From a virus: a DNA stretch of 38,797 bases. This document shows, in pieces, positions 9,373 to 38,797 of the stretch (positions are counted from its first letter, which is position 1; every line of letters begins with the position of its first letter). Below the pieces are notes generated by a model, which was not told the origin of the DNA, ran no database searches, and saw only the letters and a program-made list of their open reading frames with translations. Both the position numbers and the translations under genes were made by a program. Location of the stretch: positions 1 to 38,797 of IMG/VR virus record IMGVR_UViG_3300045119_000374; one strand, given 5' to 3'.

Positions 9373-9696
9373 TCAGAGCTTCCTTCCGTCATCGGTGCGG
9401 AGCAGCCGGCATTCGCGGCTGTCCAGCACCTGGTTCAACAGTTTCGGGTCTTTGGTGACCCCGAGTTTTTGCCATTGCTGCCAGATCACCAGCGGCACGC
9501 GCGCTACGTGGGTCCAACTCTGGCCGCGCGCCCGGTGCGGATCGAAATCGCTCGCGATCCGCTTCGCCGACTCCACGATCTGGCGCGTGTCCTGGGTGTG
9601 GGTCATCACGAGACCGACCCTGGGGTCGGAGTCAGCCTCGATCTCGGTGTAGCGCCGGGTCGACGGATCAAAGTTTTCGTAAAGGAGGTTAGCCAT
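9373..9696 (-). CDS. Conserved protein following the capsid gene
   Basis: The protein has 107 residues and starts MANLLYENFDPSTRRYTEIE. This short protein, with VGLVMTHTQDTRQIVESAKR, a RGQSWTHVARVPLVIWQQW segment and a C-terminal DSRECRLLRTDDGRKL, is a conserved companion of SU10-type capsid genes in podoviruses and pelagiphages. In this genome an HNH gene has come between it and the capsid gene, and the two overlap by 8 bases. Function is unknown; a head-completion role is only positional inference. Confidence 0.8.
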   Translation of the reverse strand: MANLLYENFDPSTRRYTEIEADSDPRVGLVMTHTQDTRQIVESAKRIASDFDPHRARGQSWTHVARVPLVIWQQWQKLGVTKDPKLLNQVLDSRECRLLRTDDGRKL

Positions 9697-10402
9697 CGCG
9701 CTTACGCCTGTAATAGATGGCCAATGCCCTTGCGTTGGAACACGCCTTGCACGATCGCATGCCGTTGTAGAGATACGTGTTGTCAGGCGTGTATTCGTGT
9801 CCAGACGGACAGTGCGTCTTAGCGGCGTTTAAGGACGAACCACCCTTGAATCGGCCCTTGGCTCGCATGTCACTGACGTTATCCCGCTGCGTGCCAAGAA
9901 ACAGGTGAGCCGGATTACAACAAGCCGGAACATCACAGATATGGCAGACACTCATACCATCAGGGATTGGTCCATTGACCTCTTCCCAGGCCAGTCGATG
10001 AACCCTTAACGTTGTGCCGTCACGACCTATCATGCCGTATCCGTCATTTGTGACCGCCCCCTCCCAGAGCCAACAACCTGAGTTAGGCTCTGGGATAAGA
10101 CGGTCACGCCAAGGGATCACCTCAGCCTTTCTCGTATCGGCGGTCGTAGTCAGAAACAGGTGCGTGGGATTGCAACATGCCGTGACGCCGCACGTATGTG
10201 AGACAATCGACCCTTGTGGAACAGGCCCGTGCGTTTCTTCCCAGGCGACGCGATGAACACGTAACGTCTTTCCATCACGTGTGAATTGTCCGAAGCCGCC
10301 AGGATCAACACGGCCCTGCCACAACCAACAGTCAGTCGCCTGTTGAGGTATTACGCGGTCTTGCCACGGAGTTGGTTTTCTCATCTCCATCGTATACATC
10401 AT
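9689..10402 (-). CDS. Tandem-duplicated HNH homing endonuclease
   Basis: The protein has 237 residues and starts at ATG 10402, with GAGG eight bases upstream; ATG 10399 is also possible. Two similar HNH modules follow one another: PWQDRVIP..CWLWQGRVDPGGFG..HRVAWEETHGPVPQGS..SHTCGVTACCNPTHLFL and PWRDRLIP..CWLWEGAVTNDGYG..HRLAWEEVNGPIPDGM..CHICDVPACCNPAHLFLGT. The second keeps the usual H-x-C-D signature; in the first the Asp is Gly, so it may be degraded. The C-terminus has a C-x..C-x2-C zinc motif (HCPSGHEYTPDN, then CKACSN). It sits in the capsid-head operon as a mobile insertion. Confidence 0.88.
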   Translation of the reverse strand: MMYTMEMRKPTPWQDRVIPQQATDCWLWQGRVDPGGFGQFTRDGKTLRVHRVAWEETHGPVPQGSIVSHTCGVTACCNPTHLFLTTTADTRKAEVIPWRDRLIPEPNSGCWLWEGAVTNDGYGMIGRDGTTLRVHRLAWEEVNGPIPDGMSVCHICDVPACCNPAHLFLGTQRDNVSDMRAKGRFKGGSSLNAAKTHCPSGHEYTPDNTYLYNGMRSCKACSNARALAIYYRRKRDG

Positions 10403-22158: not shown

Positions 22159-22331
22159 AAGCCTCGGAGCGAGTGGCCAAGGCGATTTACGCCCTTAATC
22201 CACACCTCGATCAAGGTGTCCCGGTGCCATGGGACGAACTGCGCGGGCCGTTGCGCGATTCAGCTTTTCGGATCGCCAGGGCCGCGATTGAAGCGATTGC
22301 GGCCCTCGACGAGCGTGATGACGCGCCATAG
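22155..22331 (+). CDS. Small helical early protein
   Basis: The protein has 58 residues. ATG 22155 overlaps the previous stop as ATGA and starts MKASERVAKAIYALNPHLDQ. It is helical with an Ala/Ile-rich C-terminus (RIARAAIEAIAALDERDDAP). This type is seen in many small phage proteins without a known role. It is the last gene before a strong terminator. Confidence 0.72.
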   Translation: MKASERVAKAIYALNPHLDQGVPVPWDELRGPLRDSAFRIARAAIEAIAALDERDDAP

Positions 22332-22379
22332 TCTCTGTCCGTCGCTCCTCGCGACTGTCACCACGATCCACTCCGACCG

Positions 22380-22413
22380 CCGCCGCCCTCCCCCCTTGGC
22401 GGCGGTTTTTTTT
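22380..22413 (+). terminator. Intrinsic terminator of the rightward early operon
   Basis: CCGCCGCC (22380-22387) pairs with GGCGGCGG (22398-22405) around a 10-base loop and is followed by eight T (22406-22413). It is a textbook rho-independent terminator 48 bases after the last stop codon. Confidence 0.92.
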
Positions 22414-22450
22414 GTGGCCGGACACCAATCCCGCATTTGACTTTCGTCAA

Positions 22451-22651
22451 CACCGTAGCAGCGTAGCTCTCTATAGAGAATGGATGCTACGCTACGGATA
22501 CGGAGGGGTCGAAACCCCCCCGTTCGTATCCGGCCTTGCTACGGGCTAAATTTTTGTTTTTGTTGGATAATTCGGAAATCGTAGCAGACCGTAGCATCGT
22601 TACGGTAGCAAAAGATACGATCCGTTGCCGTAGCAGAATGGATGATACGAT
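22451..22651. other. Candidate replication origin: CGTAGCA repeat cluster
   Basis: Seven-base units CGTAGCA or its complement recur at 22454, 22580, 22590 and 22629 (forward), 22604 (GGTAGCA), 22462 (CGTAGCT) and, inverted, at 22485, 22490 (CGCTACG) and 22537. GATACGAT occurs at 22614 and 22644, and a 15-base AGAATGGATG-N-TACG at 22477 and 22635 with one mismatch. An AT-rich run (about 22545-22580) lies among them. Iteron-like repeats, an AT-rich stretch and the adjacent RepA-like helicase gene are what a theta or strand-displacement origin looks like. It lies between two convergent operons and has no open frame. Confidence 0.62.
22495..22532. repeat. Long perfect-arm hairpin inside the repeat cluster
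   Basis: CGGATACG (22495-22502) pairs with CGTATCCG (22525-22532), and inside it GGGGT (22505-22509) pairs with ACCCC (22514-22518) around CGAA. It could be an origin hairpin (single-strand initiation type) or a two-way transcription terminator; the T-rich stretch starts 17 bases downstream on the plus strand. Confidence 0.75.
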
Positions 22652-22662
22652 TTGGTTTTCCC

Positions 22663-22693
22663 TGGTGAGTATATATCTGTCTGCGACTCACCA
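22663..22693. terminator. Inverted repeat at the end of the helicase gene
   Basis: TGGTGAGT (22663-22670) is the exact complement of ACTCACCA (22686-22693), with a 15-base loop, and it overlaps the helicase stop codon. There is no T-run, so it may be a weak terminator or stability element of the leftward operon. Confidence 0.45.
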
Positions 22694-23818
22694 CCTGTAG
22701 TTGAGCTTCTCGACTACTTTCTCGCCTTTTTCGGTAAGTGTCCACTGCGCTCCCTTGCGGATGCGGACGATCAGTTTGTCCTCGGAAAGCGTGGAAATAG
22801 CCCGTTGCACGCGCCATTTCAGGGGTTGGTCGTTGTCGTCGATCCATCCGGCGTGTCGGCAGATCTGGGCGTATGACCAGTCTGGGTATGTGTTAAGCGC
22901 CCACAGGACGACGTCTTCGTTCGCGAGAGTCTGTTTGCCGTGGTCGGCGACGGCTTCCTCGGACATGGGTTCGGCGATGATGGTCATCTCGGGCCGGTCG
23001 TTTTCGTCGATCAGTCCGGTTTCCACTTTGCGTAGGCGGTAGCCGAGGGGGGAGAAGTCCGGCCCCCGGATTTTGCCGCACCAGTGCAGTTCGGTGACTT
23101 CGCCTTGTTCGTCGGACCAGAGCACGAGGTTGCCGTCCAGTTCGTTCAGGAACGCGCCGCCGCCCCGTGGCAGCAGGTTGCCGCGCGCGGCGCCCTTGAC
23201 GGGGTGTGAGAGGGCGACGACGGCGGGGTTGCCTGGGCAGTCGTGCAGGGTTCGCAGCGTCCTGGCGTAGCCTCCGGCCTGCACGTTGGAGTTCTCATCG
23301 TCGCCGGGGAAGAAGCTGGAAGCGGTATCACCGATGATGAGGGCGAGATCGATGCCGAGGCCGGTGATGGCTTTCCGCAGTGCCTCGACCTCCTCCTCGG
23401 CGAACGGGAACGCTCCGGGGAGCACGTAGGGCAGTTGGTTGAGTGGGATTTTGCAGGCTTTTGCCATGCCGATCATGCGGGCTTCGAGGTCGGCGGGATT
23501 TTCGCCGGCCAGGATGAGGACGTTACCCAGGAACGTGCCGAGGTTGCCGATTGATCGGCCGGCGTGGATCATGCAGGCGTTGAACAGCCAGACGGCGGTT
23601 TTGCCGTGTCCGGTGAGTGAGGTGCATGCGTAGAGGCGTCCGCGTTGGACGATGCCATCGATAAGCCATACCGGCGGCACATGGCTGGCGATGAACTCGG
23701 CGCCGGTCAGGATGCGGTTGACGCCTTTCTGGGGTTCGGGAGGTGGCTTTGTCCCGCCGCTTTCGTAGGCCTGTCGGATCTTTTCGCGGCGTGTTTTTTC
23801 GCCGTCGTCATGGGCCAT
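22688..23818 (-). CDS. RepA-like hexameric replicative helicase
   Basis: The protein has 376 residues and starts MAHDDGEKTRREKIRQAYES. The Walker A is SLTGHGKT (67-74), the Walker B LALIIGDT (158-165), and an ALSHPVKGA segment (202-210) with the conserved His follows, as in the AAA_25/RepA RecA-fold helicases of IncQ plasmids and phages. A winged-helix-like domain is at the C-terminus (about 300-376, W-x-VQRAISTLSEDKLIVRIR). It likely unwinds DNA at the phage origin, which lies directly downstream. It is the last gene of the leftward recombination-replication operon and overlaps its neighbour by 11 bases. Confidence 0.85.
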   Translation of the reverse strand: MAHDDGEKTRREKIRQAYESGGTKPPPEPQKGVNRILTGAEFIASHVPPVWLIDGIVQRGRLYACTSLTGHGKTAVWLFNACMIHAGRSIGNLGTFLGNVLILAGENPADLEARMIGMAKACKIPLNQLPYVLPGAFPFAEEEVEALRKAITGLGIDLALIIGDTASSFFPGDDENSNVQAGGYARTLRTLHDCPGNPAVVALSHPVKGAARGNLLPRGGGAFLNELDGNLVLWSDEQGEVTELHWCGKIRGPDFSPLGYRLRKVETGLIDENDRPEMTIIAEPMSEEAVADHGKQTLANEDVVLWALNTYPDWSYAQICRHAGWIDDNDQPLKWRVQRAISTLSEDKLIVRIRKGAQWTLTEKGEKVVEKLNYRW

Positions 23819-24173
23819 GTCCCCTCCTCCTGGCGTCGGGCAGGGTGTCGTAGATCGTCTCCGTTACGATCGCGGTGACCTCCGGCTCATCCAGGGTTTG
23901 TGATTGGTTGATGTCGTGGGCCTGCGCCATGATGGCGTTCCACGGCAGGCGGGCGCGGGCGTTGGCCGTGGTCAGTTCGCGGATACGCAGCCGTAGCTGG
24001 TCGCGTGTGTGTCGCCAGATGGCGGCGGATTCCCGCATTTCCCTGGCGTGTCGGGCGGCTTCATCGATGTCGGAATATCTTGCCAGTATCGCGACATCGG
24101 CGAGCGTCAGGGTGAGCCACTCCCGCGCGACGGCGTAGCCGAGTTCGGCGGCGAAGGAAGGGTGGTTTGACAT
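23808..24173 (-). CDS. Small helical protein before the helicase
   Basis: The protein has 121 residues; ATG 24173 overlaps the upstream stop as TGATG. It is helical with an Arg-rich stretch (WRHTRDQLRLRIRELTTANARA) and an acidic C-terminus. Position between the nuclease and helicase genes suggests a replication accessory, such as a helicase loader, but no motif supports it. Confidence 0.65.
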   Translation of the reverse strand: MSNHPSFAAELGYAVAREWLTLTLADVAILARYSDIDEAARHAREMRESAAIWRHTRDQLRLRIRELTTANARARLPWNAIMAQAHDINQSQTLDEPEVTAIVTETIYDTLPDARRRGHGP

Positions 24174-25345
24174 CAGGCGAGTGCCTGTCGGCACAATGCG
24201 TCGCCGCGATCTTCAAGCACGACGTCGATCGGTCGGCGGAAGCCTATCCTCGGGTTTGTCGTGGTCATCCAGAGTTCGGCCAGATCGGCTCGCCCGAGTT
24301 TTGCCATGGCGGCGCGCCGTAGCGCGTCACGGGCAACCTGTCTGGCTTCATTGATCTGGGCCAGTTTTCCCTCTTTCTCGCGGATCAGGCTGGCGGCCCA
24401 GGCGCAGAATTCTCCGAGGTTCGGTGTGTCGCCTTCGAAGCCTCCCTGGTTTCGCCATTGGCTGACGCGTTGCTCGGTCCAGAGTTCGGCGACCGTATCA
24501 TCGTTGAAGTGTGCTTTGGCGACCGAGACGACCATGGCCCTGGCTCTGCCGATGGCCCGTGTCTTGGCGGCGTTCGTCTCCTGCTCTTTCCTGGCGGTGA
24601 CCTGTCGCTCGGCCTGCTGTTGTTCTTCCCATAGCGCCCATTGCGTCATGAGTTTGGCCCGTTCGCCGGCCATGGCGGCCTCGAGGTCTTGTTCGGCTTT
24701 GAGGCGTGCCGCTTCGGTCACGGCGGCCTCTGCTCGCGCGGCTTGTTCGAGTCTGTTGAACAGCCAGTGGCGCGGCGCTTCTCTGAAGATCGCCTGCCAG
24801 ATGGTTTCCTCGGTGACTTCCCGGCGATGGAATGAGCCGAGGTCGATCTCCATGGCTGGTGCGGCTCGTTGCCGTAGTTTCTCGATTTTGTCTTCGTCGG
24901 CTTTGTGGGTGACGGCGACCTCGATGATGAGGTCGTGACCCTCGAAGTTGGCGACGATGTCGGGCCGCAGCCCATCGATCCATTGCTCGAGGCGGATATC
25001 GGTCAGTGCGAGGTCGCGCGGGTCTGCCACGTGTCGGAACGTATTTCCGACCGTGACGTATACGCCTGGGATCATGATGACCCCGTGTTTTTCGATCAGT
25101 TCCTTGGCGAGGAGGTGCACCATGCTCTCGAAGCCGGTGGTGCAGATGCTGTCGGCGAGATGGGCGAAGTGGTGACGTATGATGAGGCCCTGTTTGGCGA
25201 CGAGTGGTCGTCGGCATCCGGGGCATATGCAGTCGCACGCGAGGCCTCGCGGCACGTCGCTGACCGGGACCAGCTTGCCGTCTGGTCCGAGGCCGTAGGG
25301 TAGGGCTACGTCGGTTGGAAGGAATGACGGTGGCGCGTCAGACAT
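24173..25345 (-). CDS. CoiA-like nuclease with a C-terminal DUF2384-like tail
   Basis: The protein has 390 residues. The N-terminus holds a zinc-finger type CDCICPGC (37-44) then LIIRHHFAH, as in CoiA-type competence proteins. RPDI (127-130) then IIEVAVTHK (140-148) is a PD-(D/E)XK nuclease core with Asp129, Glu142 and Lys148, with Glu74 upstream. A long Ala/Glu/Gln coiled coil (about 205-265) separates it from a C-terminal LAELWMTTTNPRIGFRRPID segment that resembles the MbcA/ParS/Xre (DUF2384) fold. It lies between RecT and helicase genes, so a recombination or DNA-processing nuclease is likely. The DUF2384 match is tentative. Confidence 0.8.
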   Translation of the reverse strand: MSDAPPSFLPTDVALPYGLGPDGKLVPVSDVPRGLACDCICPGCRRPLVAKQGLIIRHHFAHLADSICTTGFESMVHLLAKELIEKHGVIMIPGVYVTVGNTFRHVADPRDLALTDIRLEQWIDGLRPDIVANFEGHDLIIEVAVTHKADEDKIEKLRQRAAPAMEIDLGSFHRREVTEETIWQAIFREAPRHWLFNRLEQAARAEAAVTEAARLKAEQDLEAAMAGERAKLMTQWALWEEQQQAERQVTARKEQETNAAKTRAIGRARAMVVSVAKAHFNDDTVAELWTEQRVSQWRNQGGFEGDTPNLGEFCAWAASLIREKEGKLAQINEARQVARDALRRAAMAKLGRADLAELWMTTTNPRIGFRRPIDVVLEDRGDALCRQALA

Positions 25346-25357
25346 GGCGCTCCCCGG

Positions 25358-26278
25358 TTATGCTGGCGCCGGCTCGCGGAACGGATCGGTCGCGGGGTCG
25401 GCGAAAACGCCATCGTCCTCTGGCGCGGAAGTCTCAGTGGCGGCGGTGCGGCGGATTGCCTCCGAGATGATATGGTTCAGCCGGTCCTTGGCGGCGGGAC
25501 CGAAGCGGTCCAGGGCCAGTTGGACGTCACTCCTCGCCAGTATGGCGTCCACTTCCTCGCCGCCCTCGCAGGCGGCCAGTTCCAGCCCGACCGCGTCCAC
25601 GAACTGGCCTTGTGTTGGGCGTTTGGGTTGCTCGACGACCACGGCGACCGGATCGGGCGTGCCGGCGGCGTGCTGCACCGTTTGGCGTTCGGGTGGCGCC
25701 GGATCGTGCGTTGCGGGCGCGGCGTCGAGCGTGGTGCCCCGGAACGTGTCGCGGACGGTCTGGGCGTCGAACTCCTCCGGCGAATACACGCCCAGCATCA
25801 CCTCGGGGGCGTGTCTGCGAGCCCAGACCCGCGCCGCGTGATACGTCAACATTTGGTCGGGGCTCTTCTTCCAGTGTTCGTTGTCGGTCCTGGCGCTGGC
25901 GAGCGTGACGACGACCTCGCGTGGCTTGTCCTCGCCGCGCATGATGCCGCGCGCCGTGACGGCCCTGGTCGCGTCCTCGCCGCTGAACTCGTAATCGAGC
26001 CGCCCTTGGAGGACGCCGCTGGCGTTTATGGCGGCGGAAACCAGTTTCCCCTCGTAGCTGATGCGTCCGCGCACGATCGCCGTGCATTGTGCGACGGCAA
26101 AAGGCGACATGCCCCAACGGCAGGCCTGCTCGATCACCATGAGCATGTCGGACGGATTGCGGAGATGCTCTGGCACCATCTTGCCTCTCGCCATCATCTC
26201 CGCGAGACGCATGGCGTCGGTGAGGTTCTGCGGGATCAGGCCGGAGCCGTTGCCGCCGGTTGTCGTGATCGCATTCAT
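25358..26278 (-). CDS. recT: RecT single-strand annealing protein
   Basis: The protein has 306 residues and begins MNAITTTGGNGSGLIPQNLT. The RecT core is clear: WGMSPFAVAQCTAIVRGRIS, YEGKLVSAAINASGVLQGRL, DYEFSGEDATR, and MLTYHAARVWARRHAPEVML. RecT anneals complementary strands in phage recombination and genome concatemer formation. The C-terminal third is Pro-rich with a helical end. It overlaps the inserted HNH gene as ATGA and is followed by a CoiA-like nuclease that may stand in for the usual exonuclease. Confidence 0.9.
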   Translation of the reverse strand: MNAITTTGGNGSGLIPQNLTDAMRLAEMMARGKMVPEHLRNPSDMLMVIEQACRWGMSPFAVAQCTAIVRGRISYEGKLVSAAINASGVLQGRLDYEFSGEDATRAVTARGIMRGEDKPREVVVTLASARTDNEHWKKSPDQMLTYHAARVWARRHAPEVMLGVYSPEEFDAQTVRDTFRGTTLDAAPATHDPAPPERQTVQHAAGTPDPVAVVVEQPKRPTQGQFVDAVGLELAACEGGEEVDAILARSDVQLALDRFGPAAKDRLNHIISEAIRRTAATETSAPEDDGVFADPATDPFREPAPA

Positions 26279-26751
26279 GGGATGTGGCTCCAGGTCTGGC
26301 CGTGCCGGACCAAATAAATTACGCGGGGAGTGACGTTCAGTTGACGAGCCAGAACAACGCCGTTTTCAGCGCTGGCCTTGATCATTTTCACGTCGTCGTC
26401 AGTTAATTTGGCGTTGTGATTGGCCGCGCCACGGTTAGGATTTGTCCGGTGCCTGCCTTTACTAAGCATGTCTTTGGTGTTGTCGTCAGCGGTCCCAAGG
26501 AACAAATGGGTTGGATTAACGCACAGCCTGACGTCGCAATGGTGCAGCACCATCATACCGTCGGGGATGGCGCCAACGTGAAGTTGGTAGGAAACGCGGT
26601 GCGCTGAGGCTTTGGTCTGCCCGAACGCATAAAGTTTCCCATAACCGACGTCGGACATGGTTCCGCGCCACAGCCAGCAACCTGAGTTTGGCTCAGGCAT
26701 CCATTGCATGGCGAAACGTTGCTCGACGGTCATGTCGCGGGGGCGGACCAT
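26275..26751 (-). CDS. HNH homing endonuclease with C-terminal HTH
   Basis: The protein has 158 residues. It starts MVRPRDMTVEQRFAMQWMPE and contains GCWLWRGTMSDVGYG, then HRVSYQLHVGAIPDG and the HNH signature VLHHCDVRLCVNPTHLFLGT with TADDNTKDM. The C-terminal NHNAKLTDDDVKMIKASAEN and QLNVTPRVIYLVRHGQTW resemble the helix-turn-helix of such nucleases. Both ends overlap their neighbours (TGATG and ATGA), so it fits the operon perfectly despite being a mobile gene. It is a relative of the tandem HNH gene at 9689. Confidence 0.85.
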   Translation of the reverse strand: MVRPRDMTVEQRFAMQWMPEPNSGCWLWRGTMSDVGYGKLYAFGQTKASAHRVSYQLHVGAIPDGMMVLHHCDVRLCVNPTHLFLGTADDNTKDMLSKGRHRTNPNRGAANHNAKLTDDDVKMIKASAENGVVLARQLNVTPRVIYLVRHGQTWSHIP

Positions 26752-31370: not shown

Positions 31371-31835
31371 TTATTCCGCCGCGTCCGCGAACAGGTCGCC
31401 CGTCTTCGGCTCGCCCAGCATGTGCGTCAGCCGCTTCCGAAGCCCCGCATTTTCCTTAAAGCCAAGCAGTGTGCGCGTGCGAAACCCGCAAAACCGCTTA
31501 TGTTCCTCGTAGGTCTTCCAGACCTCATCACAATTCAGGATGTAGGCGTTCGCGGTGCCGACTTTGGCGACGACGATCGCGTTGCTCTCCGCCAGATATT
31601 TGATCGCTCGCCGGATGGTCCTCTGATGTAGGTCCAGTTCCTCCGCGATCAGGTCGATCGTACAGCAGAGCGCATTATCATGGCCGCAGTGCTCAGTCAG
31701 GAACACCCAGACCCGAGCCGTTGCCGCGCCGCCCCGAAGGCTGATCAACTCTTTCAGCCGGGTGAACCCCCGATCATAGATCTTGGTGAAGCGAGGACCG
31801 GATGGGGTGTTCGCCGTGTCACGTATAGAGGTCAT
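31371..31835 (-). CDS. Winged-helix replication-initiator-like protein
   Basis: The protein has 154 residues. ATG 31835 has GGAAGG six bases upstream; a longer frame to 31934 runs across the operators. A wHTH segment reads CTIDLIAEELDLHQRTIRRA, then YLAESNAIVVAKV, followed by NAYILNCDEVWKTYEEHKRF and CGFRTRTLLGF. I associate this HTH-plus-TRTL pattern with small plasmid replication proteins in alphaproteobacteria. It is preceded by repeated palindromes in its promoter, as for self-regulated Rep genes. Initiator function is inference; it may be just a regulator. Confidence 0.62.
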   Translation of the reverse strand: MTSIRDTANTPSGPRFTKIYDRGFTRLKELISLRGGAATARVWVFLTEHCGHDNALCCTIDLIAEELDLHQRTIRRAIKYLAESNAIVVAKVGTANAYILNCDEVWKTYEEHKRFCGFRTRTLLGFKENAGLRKRLTHMLGEPKTGDLFADAAE

Positions 31836-31864
31836 TTTCAGCCTTCCCATGGACTCAGAAATCC

Positions 31865-31948
31865 CATATACGGATTTTCGTGTCCTGACAACGGACAGAT
31901 AGAGGACATAGCTCATGTCCCCTATTGAGGACATGGCTCATGTCCCCT
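31865..31948 (-). promoter_or_regulatory. Promoter and palindromic repeats of the Rep-like gene
   Basis: A 22-base unit GAGGACATRGCTCATGTCCCCT occurs at 31902-31923 and 31927-31948 (period 25 bases), each containing GGACAT-N5-ATGTCC. A related TGTCC-N7-GGACA lies at 31881-31897, and its spacer is TTGTCA on the minus strand, a -35 box for TATATG (31870-31865) 15 bases downstream. The half-sites therefore enclose the -35, fitting self-repression by the Rep-like protein. Confidence 0.72.
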
Positions 31949-36897: not shown

Positions 36898-37545
36898 CTA
36901 CCCTAACAGCCCGCGTGGGCGATATGTGACCGGGGCACCGCTCAGTTGCCCCTGCTGATACGCCTCCTGCCGTCTGAGCAAGGCGTCCACGATGGCCGCG
37001 AGTTGCCTCTCACCGCCCTGTGGCTTGCCCACGGCGCCGGCGACAAAGGTTTGCTTTGGACCCGCCGATGCCGATGGCGCGGCCGCCTTGGCCGCCGTGG
37101 AGGCCGTGGTGCCGGCGCTCAGCAGCTTGCCGCCGGCCGAGAGTTTTTCGCCGGTCGAGGCGGTGTCCCACCACGCCCCCAGCTTACCGAGCAAACTGGA
37201 CGGAACGGTGTCCAGGGTAGCGCCCTGCACGGTGGGGCCGAGCAAGGGTCCAGAGGCATTGGCTGATATCCCCGCGTCCGCCGCCAGCGCCGGCTCCGCC
37301 GCGCTCGAGAGCGTCAGGAGGTCGGTCGGCGCCGTGGCCGCCGCTACCTCGGGCAGGGTCGCCGCCGCGATCTCCGGCGCCGTGGCCGCCGCTGTCCCTG
37401 CCGCCGCTGTCCCTGCCGCCGCCGTCGCGGCCAGATCCGCCGCTGTCGCAGCCGCCGCCGTTCCGGCCGCCGCTGTTCCGGCCGTCGCCGCCGTATCGGC
37501 CGCCGCCGCGAGCAGAGCGGCTTCGGTGATACCTCCGTCAGCCAT
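36898..37545 (-). CDS. Ala-rich internal virion protein
   Basis: The protein has 215 residues and starts MADGGITEAALLAAAADTAA. The first 100 residues are almost wholly Ala/Thr/Gly, forming helical repeats like small ejection proteins; the C-terminus (RQLAAIVDALLRRQEAYQQG) is a charged helix. It lies between the Gln-rich and transglycosylase genes with gaps of 15 and 3 bases. Ejection function is inferred from composition and position. Confidence 0.75.
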   Translation of the reverse strand: MADGGITEAALLAAAADTAATAGTAAAGTAAAATAADLAATAAAGTAAAGTAAATAPEIAAATLPEVAAATAPTDLLTLSSAAEPALAADAGISANASGPLLGPTVQGATLDTVPSSLLGKLGAWWDTASTGEKLSAGGKLLSAGTTASTAAKAAAPSASAGPKQTFVAGAVGKPQGGERQLAAIVDALLRRQEAYQQGQLSGAPVTYRPRGLLG

Positions 37546-37560
37546 CCGATGTGTCCCTGT

Positions 37561-38797
37561 TCATGCGATGCTGGCACTCTTCACGGCGTTCTTGTTCGTG
37601 CCGGTGAGACTGTCGATCAGACTACCGGTGTTGCCGAGCAGACCGCCCGTCGTCGCCACGCCGCCGATCACCTGTCCGAAGGGATCTGAAGCCATATCCT
37701 GGCTGAACGAGCCGGTATTGCTGGTGCTGTAAGGAATGCCGCTGACCGCGCCCAGCAAGGTCTGGATCTGTTGATACGGGAACGCCTGCTGCTGGGCGAA
37801 CGCCGCCTGTTGTGAATTCAGGATGTTCTGCTGATACTGCTGCTGTAACGTGCCCGCCTGATTGAGCGCGTTGATCTGCCCAAGCGAGGCGGCCTGCTGC
37901 CCGGACAGCGCCCCCGGCAGTTGCTGCGCCGCCGTGAGGCCCGCCTGGAGGTTGATATTGGCCATGTCCCGCGCCCCCGTCTGGCTGGCGCCGTAGCCCT
38001 GCCCCAGCGCGTTGTTGAGCGCGGTCGCGCTACCATACCCCTGCTGCGCCAGGGCATTGGCGCTACCATAGCCCTGCTGCGCCAGGGCGCTGGACGCCGC
38101 CAACCCCTGCTGTCCCGCCTGTAACCCGATATTGGTGCCCGACTGCAACGCGTTGCCCCAGCCCTGGTTGAGCATGTTGCCAATGAACTGCTGGGTGCCC
38201 AGGGCGTTCTGCGCGTCCGCCACCCCTTCCTCGACCCCCTGCCTGGAACCGCCGAAGGCGCCAACCTGAATCGCCTTGTCGGCGATGCCCTGCTTCGCCA
38301 GGGCCAGTTGCTGTTGCCCCGCCCGTAGCGCCGGATCGATCACCTGCTGGGTGTAGGGCGACATGAGTTGCTGGGCGTTCTGCCCTATGCCTTGCGCCGT
38401 CGCCGGCCCCTGCCCCGCGTAGCCGCCAAGCAGGCCCTGGCTCTGGTCATAGGCATTCCCGAACACGTTCTGGTTTTGGGAATAAGCATTACTGAGATTG
38501 GCCGACGTCGGGTTGTAGACGCCCTGCTGGAAGTTGCCGAACAACTCGTTGGTGCCGTTGTTGACGCCGCCAGCCGTCACCGGCGAAGCCTGCCCGGCCA
38601 GGCCCCAATTGGCGTTGATGGCGGCGTTCCAGCCGCCCGTGCCCATACCCTGCATGGCGCCGGTCTGATCGTAAGCCTGCCGTTGCGCCTGATTGACATC
38701 GGCGACGGTCTGCCCGGTGTAAGGGGTATAGGGTTGATTGCTCAGGGCACCGGCGCGGCCGACCGCCTGTTGGGTGTAGTCCTCCAGCCATTGGGGA
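37561..38797 (-). CDS. Ejection/internal virion protein, C-terminal part
   Basis: This is the main part of the 431-residue protein that begins at 186. It has repeated Gln/Gly/Ala segments: ALAQQGYGSANALAQQGYGS (a direct tandem repeat), SPYTQQVIDPALRAGQQQLA and QVGAFGGSRQGVEEGVADAQ, the last typical of podovirus DNA-transfer proteins. The C-terminus has a NSQQAAFAQQQAFPYQQIQT helix. The frame runs on to base 38797 because the last 127 bases repeat the start. An ATG at 38655 is not the real start. Confidence 0.85.
   Translation of the reverse strand, partial: PQWLEDYTQQAVGRAGALSNQPYTPYTGQTVADVNQAQRQAYDQTGAMQGMGTGGWNAAINANWGLAGQASPVTAGGVNNGTNELFGNFQQGVYNPTSANLSNAYSQNQNVFGNAYDQSQGLLGGYAGQGPATAQGIGQNAQQLMSPYTQQVIDPALRAGQQQLALAKQGIADKAIQVGAFGGSRQGVEEGVADAQNALGTQQFIGNMLNQGWGNALQSGTNIGLQAGQQGLAASSALAQQGYGSANALAQQGYGSATALNNALGQGYGASQTGARDMANINLQAGLTAAQQLPGALSGQQAASLGQINALNQAGTLQQQYQQNILNSQQAAFAQQQAFPYQQIQTLLGAVSGIPYSTSNTGSFSQDMASDPFGQVIGGVATTGGLLGNTGSLIDSLTGTNKNAVKSASIA
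38030..38089. repeat. Tandem repeat in the ejection protein
   Basis: A 30-base unit coding for QQGYGSANAL-like decapeptides (ALAQQGYGSA) occurs nearly exactly twice between 38032 and 38091, with ACCATA(C/G)CCCTGCTGCGCC as its core. It repeats in frame and probably arose by slippage. Confidence 0.7.
38671..38797. repeat. Terminal direct redundancy, right copy
   Basis: These 127 bases equal bases 1-127. Joining the copies gives a closed circle with the ejection gene intact across the join, which is the best evidence that the window is a whole genome. Confidence 0.97.

Follow-up and report, generated by a model that had tools for sequence, protein, structure and literature searches.

Where does a phage that is known only from its DNA start to copy its genome, and which of its proteins recognises the place? 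This question is raised by a gene-free stretch of about 200 bases in the IMG/VR virus record IMGVR_UViG_3300045119_000374, a complete-looking record of 38,797 bp which was analysed at its full length and is called the window here. The stretch is crowded with copies of a short motif, CGTAGCA, and lies directly 3' of the gene of a RepA-like helicase. The initial annotation regarded it as a probable origin whose arrangement recalls the IncQ type, with a helicase plus an iteron-binding initiator.

The window phage is a tailed phage with genes for portal, major head, terminase, a RecT-like annealing protein and RusA. A subset of the ORFs was scanned at the protein level, and none of these proteins was recognised as a primase. 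Two proteins (9689-10402 and 26275-26751, minus strand) resemble HNH endonucleases by their motifs, which are similar around PEPNSGCWLW, and a gene with a CoiA N-terminal domain (24173-25345, minus strand) is located near the helicase gene. A direct terminal repeat of 127 bp is present at 1-127 and 38671-38797. Since the records of three related phages (L077, L039 and L013) show a terminal repeat of identical length, it is probably the k-mer of an assembler on a circular contig and not biological.

A cluster of short sites next to a helicase gene

The exact heptamer CGTAGCA occurs seven times in the window, and six of these copies are located in 22454-22635. The hexamer CGTAGC is found eight times in the cluster, and the more general CGTANC at 13 sites in 206 bp (22454-22649), compared to 0.29 expected from its density elsewhere. 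In 60 dinucleotide shuffles of the whole window, no 7-mer reached more than four copies per 210 bp as compared to the six observed, on which ground chance or low complexity was rejected as the source of the cluster. The only denser 7-mer cluster in the window is a low-complexity run of the GCC type at 37.3 kb; such GCC-type repeats (37278-37503) lie inside an Ala/Thr-rich reading frame (36898-37545). The density of CGTAGCA-type units beyond chance, as claimed initially, was thus confirmed, and so were a 15-base repeat (22477 and 22635, identical at 14 of 15 bases), two GATACGAT units (22612 and 22642), a hairpin and an AT-rich patch. The position of the cluster between converging genes, directly 3' of the helicase gene, was also borne out: the genes on the plus strand end at 22331 and the helicase gene on the minus strand ends at 22688.

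The sites are 7 bp long and are found in both orientations with uneven spacing (Table 1). Most relatives have a hairpin at a similar position. Although this position is conserved, the hairpin is in its energy just slightly above the local background in stability, and its interpretation as an unusually stable conserved element was dropped. In 22462-22491, and at the same position in relatives, a short conserved element like TTCCTATAGAGG / TTTCTATAGGGG is seen between the last pairs of sites.

Table 1. Features of the helicase gene and of the adjacent site cluster in the window.
Position	Strand	Feature	Basis
22376..22413	+	Inverted repeat with a run of eight T behind it; probable terminator of the plus-strand operon facing the origin, outside the origin proper	
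22450..22655	.	Proposed replication origin (iteron cluster)	13 CGTANC sites; GC-skew minimum 22453
22454..22460	+	Site CGTAGCA	
22462..22468	+	Site CGTAGCT	
22485..22491	-	Site CGTAGCA	
22490..22496	-	Site CGTAGCG, overlaps site 22485..22491	
22495..22532	.	G-rich hairpin, stem with two inverted CGTATC sites	
22496..22502	-	CGTATC-type site (other specificity), in hairpin arm	
22525..22531	+	CGTATC-type site, in opposite hairpin arm	
22537..22543	-	Site CGTAGCA	
about 22547..22576	.	AT-rich patch (23/30 A/T), candidate unwinding element, sites on both sides	
22580..22586	+	Site CGTAGCA	
22590..22596	+	Site CGTAGCA	
22598..22604	-	CGTAAC-type site	
22613..22619	-	CGTATC-type site, within a GATACGAT unit	
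22629..22635	+	Site CGTAGCA	
22643..22649	-	CGTATCA site, within a GATACGAT unit	
22688..23818	-	RepA-like (RecA-fold) helicase, 376 aa, C-terminal winged helix; proposed self-loading initiator	Pfam AAA_25, E 6.5e-12
22700..22960	-	Winged-helix domain, helicase residues 287-373	AlphaFold2
22781..22819	-	Predicted recognition helix, residues 334-346 (KWRVQR...), with K334, W335, Q338, R339	Column scan, partial Mantel

Profile comparison matched the helicase to RSF1010 RepA (1g8y, E 0.0038) and Foldseek to 1olo (E 5e-6), the fold matches being RSF1010 RepA, RAD51 and DnaB. In the AlphaFold2 model of the whole helicase, pLDDT is 90-94 over the helices of the winged helix; the domain modelled alone reached a pLDDT of 88.7. 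Fold matches of the winged helix are of the MarR/MntR type, with E 4e-3 and weaker.

Cumulative GC skew, which the initial annotation had suggested as a check, shows its minimum at 22453, i.e. at the cluster. An artefact of gene orientation was rejected for the window, because minus-strand genes are present on both sides of the cluster and yet their third-codon-position skew flips sign, from +0.143 on the left to -0.215 on the right. In six of 14 large records, window included and several of them possibly fragments, minimum and cluster are no more than 1.3 kb apart. Of the 13 others, five agree with the window in this respect (distances of 238-1295 bp) and the remaining ones do not, so the skew is supportive but not universal. 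Taken with the site density, the AT-rich patch and the position-conserved clusters in relatives, the skew minimum supports well the earlier proposal of a probable origin next to a RepA-like helicase, and the 200-base stretch is very probably the place where copying of the phage DNA starts.

Site words and helicase residues in related phages

Scans of IMG/VR with the helicase revealed about 50 distinct contigs, and our comparison rests on about 35 related phages (L numbers). Close relatives of the helicase were not found in INPHARED phages, PLSDB plasmids or GTDB genomes; weak matches in Gordonia, Caulobacter and Escherichia phages comprise the helicase domain only. In most IMG/VR relatives, one 6-7-mer is enriched in a cluster immediately 3' of the helicase stop codon; this word differs by phage, and relatives with clusters at this place share about 37-83% helicase identity. 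The words include CGTAGCA, CGTATCA or CGTATCG, CGTAACA, CGTTCCA, CGTTCAG, CGTTTCA and CGTACCG, moreover TGTACCG, TGTATCG, TGTTTCA, TGTTCCA, CGTATAG and TGGTCCG. Even though the word changes, order, strand and spacing of the sites are often kept, with layout scores of up to 0.95 (window and L015, 0.90; L010 and L012, 0.95; L073 and L077, 0.92). CGATACA/CGGTACA as the forward orientation of some motifs was dropped, since the site layout matches the reverse complement. The CGTATC-type sites of the window, including those in the GATACGAT units, are largely found at the positions of the CGTATC sites of L015; the window origin may therefore be a partly converted one.

The scan for associations with each motif base took in all 277 variable columns of the helicase, in 28 non-redundant proteins. 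As the relatives are non-independent samples, the other columns of the same protein, which have the same phylogeny, served as control. The best column for base 1 was K334 (z 9.3, next 3.4), for base 4 Q338 (z 7.5, next 5.0), for base 5 W335 (z 7.0, next 3.7) and for base 6 R339 (z 9.4, next 4.7). All four are located in the predicted recognition helix and, being at i, i+1, i+4 and i+5, are spaced as on one helix face. Motif distance shows no dependence on helicase-domain distance (r = 0.03) but correlates with the four residues at a partial r = 0.64 (partial Mantel, permutation p 2e-4), the highest partial r of 1000 random 4-column sets being 0.43. The motif frame of this analysis was partly set by hand, and an orientation-free rerun with automatic 7-mers in either orientation and small shifts agrees with it (partial r = 0.62, position 334 best of 325 equivalent windows). 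In nearest-neighbour prediction at helicase-domain identities of 70% or less, the four residues recover 77% of the variable bases, as compared to 50% for the helicase domain and 55% for the average protein.

The correspondence can largely be read residue by residue. Base 1 is C in phages with Lys334 and T in those with Arg334; base 4 is mostly A where residue 338 is Gln and mostly T where it is His or Phe. At base 5, an aromatic residue 335 is accompanied by G, Ala, Gly or Pro by T, Gln by A, and Ser or Thr mostly by C. At base 6, C accompanies Arg339, and A accompanies Ala339 or Trp339. The residues explain base 7 poorly. Convergence is seen for aromatic 335 with CGTAGCA (window, L018, L024 and L068) and for Ala335 with CGTATC (L008, L015, L020, L036, L048, L073 and L083). 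Exceptions are L010 (His338 with A), L069 (Ser335 with T and Gln338 with T) as well as L077 and L032 (Ser335 with T); L014, L063, L065 and L080 fit badly or ambiguously. The comparison of these sequences shows that the 7-base signal varies in step with four residues in the tail of the helicase, and it suggests how the helicase may recognise its own origin.

Natural pairs of near-identical phages illustrate this joint change. L081 and L082 have helicase domains of 98% identity and combine R334 with TGTACCG and K334 with CGTACCG, respectively. In L010 and L012 the helicase domain is 100% identical, and Gln/Ser335 are paired with CGTAACA/CGTTCCA. The DNA of the latter two is 91-100% identical until about 200 bp before the stop codon, 62-78% over winged helix and origin, and then 86-98%. 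L081/L082 and L009/L015 show the same dip in identity. Winged helix and origin thus diverge as one cassette of roughly 500 bp between flanks of 90-100% identity, which means that reader and sites change together as a compact unit. The joint change may reflect recombination or concerted change, two routes that the data do not tell apart for every pair.

Proposed recognition of the origin and alternative roles of the sites

We consider it highly likely that the cluster is the replication origin of the phage and is bound by the winged helix of the helicase itself. The RepA-like helicase encoded beside the cluster would bind the 7-base sites via its own C-terminal winged helix; several copies, gathering to the left and right of the AT-rich patch, would melt it and then load themselves as replicative helicase. 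Specificity would come mainly from the four recognition-helix residues, with 334 reading base 1, 338 base 4, 335 base 5 and 339 base 6 of a motif [C/T]G-T-[A/T]-N-[C/A]-[A/G]. As no more than about 100 bp separate the end of the winged-helix coding sequence from the first sites, the reader together with its sites would make up one compact cassette, exchangeable or co-drifting, which may give each phage lineage a private origin. Avoidance of cross-interference or of hijacking is the presumed selective reason, and the swapping of reader and sites as a pair suggests that phages are under strong selection for private origins.

Alternatively, a separate initiator corresponding to IncQ RepC might bind the sites and recruit the helicase, given that RSF1010 RepA depends on RepC. 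A candidate is the RepL/DnaD-like winged-helix protein encoded at 31371-31934 (minus strand), which shows similarity to RepL (E 7e-7) and a weak one to O-like initiators of phages. However, a homologue of it is present in only one of 21 relatives' records (some of them fragments), though nearly all have the cluster; a small gene upstream of the helicase is found in 4 of 21. Moreover, the co-variation points to the helix of the helicase itself. With no initiator common to the relatives, we rejected this unlikely alternative, and hereby the IncQ-type part of the initial annotation, a helicase plus an iteron-binding initiator, lost its support. The sole relative with the RepL-like gene is L008, at 86% identity; the protein is possibly a second initiator or a regulator.

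Could the sites be operators instead, by which the helicase, or a regulator with its winged helix, controls transcription, with the origin elsewhere? Many relatives have a co-directional reading frame starting 180-300 bp downstream, so that a promoter could lie in the cluster, and the winged helix resembles MarR/MntR-type repressors in its fold. In the window, however, the genes on either side converge on the cluster, which leaves none for it to regulate, and no sigma-70-like promoter was found there; a dozen sites around an AT-rich patch, located at the skew minimum, are more in keeping with an origin than with operators. We regard operators as quite improbable. A role of the cluster in packaging, partition or recombination, with its position beside the helicase a coincidence, is most improbable: loci of these kinds also show clustered short sites with a hairpin, but the cluster travels with the helicase and not with the terminase (conserved in 2 of 21 relatives), and it co-varies with a domain of the helicase.

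Comparison with known replicons and outlying relatives

The proposed helicase-borne recognition sets the window apart from IncQ plasmids. RepA of RSF1010, a hexameric helicase, shares its fold and, detectably, also sequence with the window helicase, and the RSF1010 iterons likewise lie beside an AT-rich segment. IncQ plasmids use a separate iteron-binding protein, RepC, and direct iterons of roughly 20 bp, and RSF1010 RepA is not known to use a C-terminal winged helix of its own for iteron recognition. The window, in contrast, has short 7-bp sites in both orientations and a reader that is probably part of the helicase. Further marks of IncQ replicons are the primase RepB' and the hairpins ssiA/ssiB; the window shows one hairpin of conserved position and unexceptional energy, and the scanned subset of its proteins includes no recognised primase. 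Having neither a separate RepC nor long direct iterons, the system is not of the IncQ type.

A closer analogue is found in satellites and cassettes. According to PMC7581432, which cites Ubeda et al. 2007, the C-terminal domain of the Rep helicases of SaPIs recognises an iteron origin directly downstream of their own gene. For Cch2 of SCCmec, the isolated C-terminal domain binds such repeats (PMC7581432). Both systems share with the window short iterons directly 3' of the own helicase gene and a proposed self-loading helicase. The window origin also has the flanking AT-rich segment of the SaPI kind. However, the SaPI/SCC helicases are DUF927/MCM-like or of the D5 type, whereas the window helicase is a RecA-fold RepA-type protein (Pfam AAA_25) encoded by a phage; because of this difference in helicase type, we do not claim membership in the SaPI Rep family. 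Co-variation at the level of residues and many natural specificities were not found described for SaPI/SCC in the literature searched.

Lambdoid phages also have private initiator-origin pairs, iterons beside an AT-rich strand and exchange of modules (PMC4488673 and the work of Furth et al. cited there). Unlike the reader proposed here, the lambdoid O protein is itself no helicase, and P serves to recruit DnaB; the iterons are of 19 bp and are bound by the N-terminal half of O, and the origin sits inside the O gene and not 3' of a helicase gene. Extra copies of the lambda origin block growth of lambda (PMC4488673), and selection for private origins could plausibly arise from such an effect. 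Replicons of Pseudomonas plasmids are natural chimeras as well, composed of exchangeable modules, but there the exchanged control and replication modules are without mutual specificity (PMC5304414), whereas a unit of the window type holds reader and site together.

An earlier description of such a phage system was not found in the open-access literature searched, in which the SaPI/SCC analogue was found. We think it fairly probable that the window represents a widespread, undescribed phage system, in which one protein would be both replicative helicase and origin reader with a short, largely readable code of four helix residues to four bases. Its cassette would have been repeatedly swapped or re-tuned, resulting in private origins that probably escape interference by co-infecting relatives or satellites. 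For an origin in uncultivated phages, sequence variation found in nature is enough to indicate the likely binding protein, the residues in contact and the bases that they apparently read. With roughly 30 natural reader-origin pairs, among them a pair with differences at one of the four reading residues and at one motif base, the evolution of initiator specificity becomes open to direct tests, and these pairs could supply many mutually compatible replicons.

Relatives that have the helicase but no repeats, which the initial annotation had named as an argument against an origin, are confined to a distant clade (L041-L044, L089 and L090); the argument holds for this clade and fails for the main ones. 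In the distant clade no cluster was found 3' of the helicase, and the winged helix is without the loop before the recognition helix. A reading frame continues 3' of the helicase in L041, L044 and L089; in these three, what follows the helicase immediately, at the place of the origin in the others, seems to be the start of a CoiA-like reading frame. Downstream of the helicase stop codon of L088 and L049, dense clusters of other words (GTGAACG; TGTGATGA) are present, and the different C-terminal helix of these two helicases suggests further types of reader.
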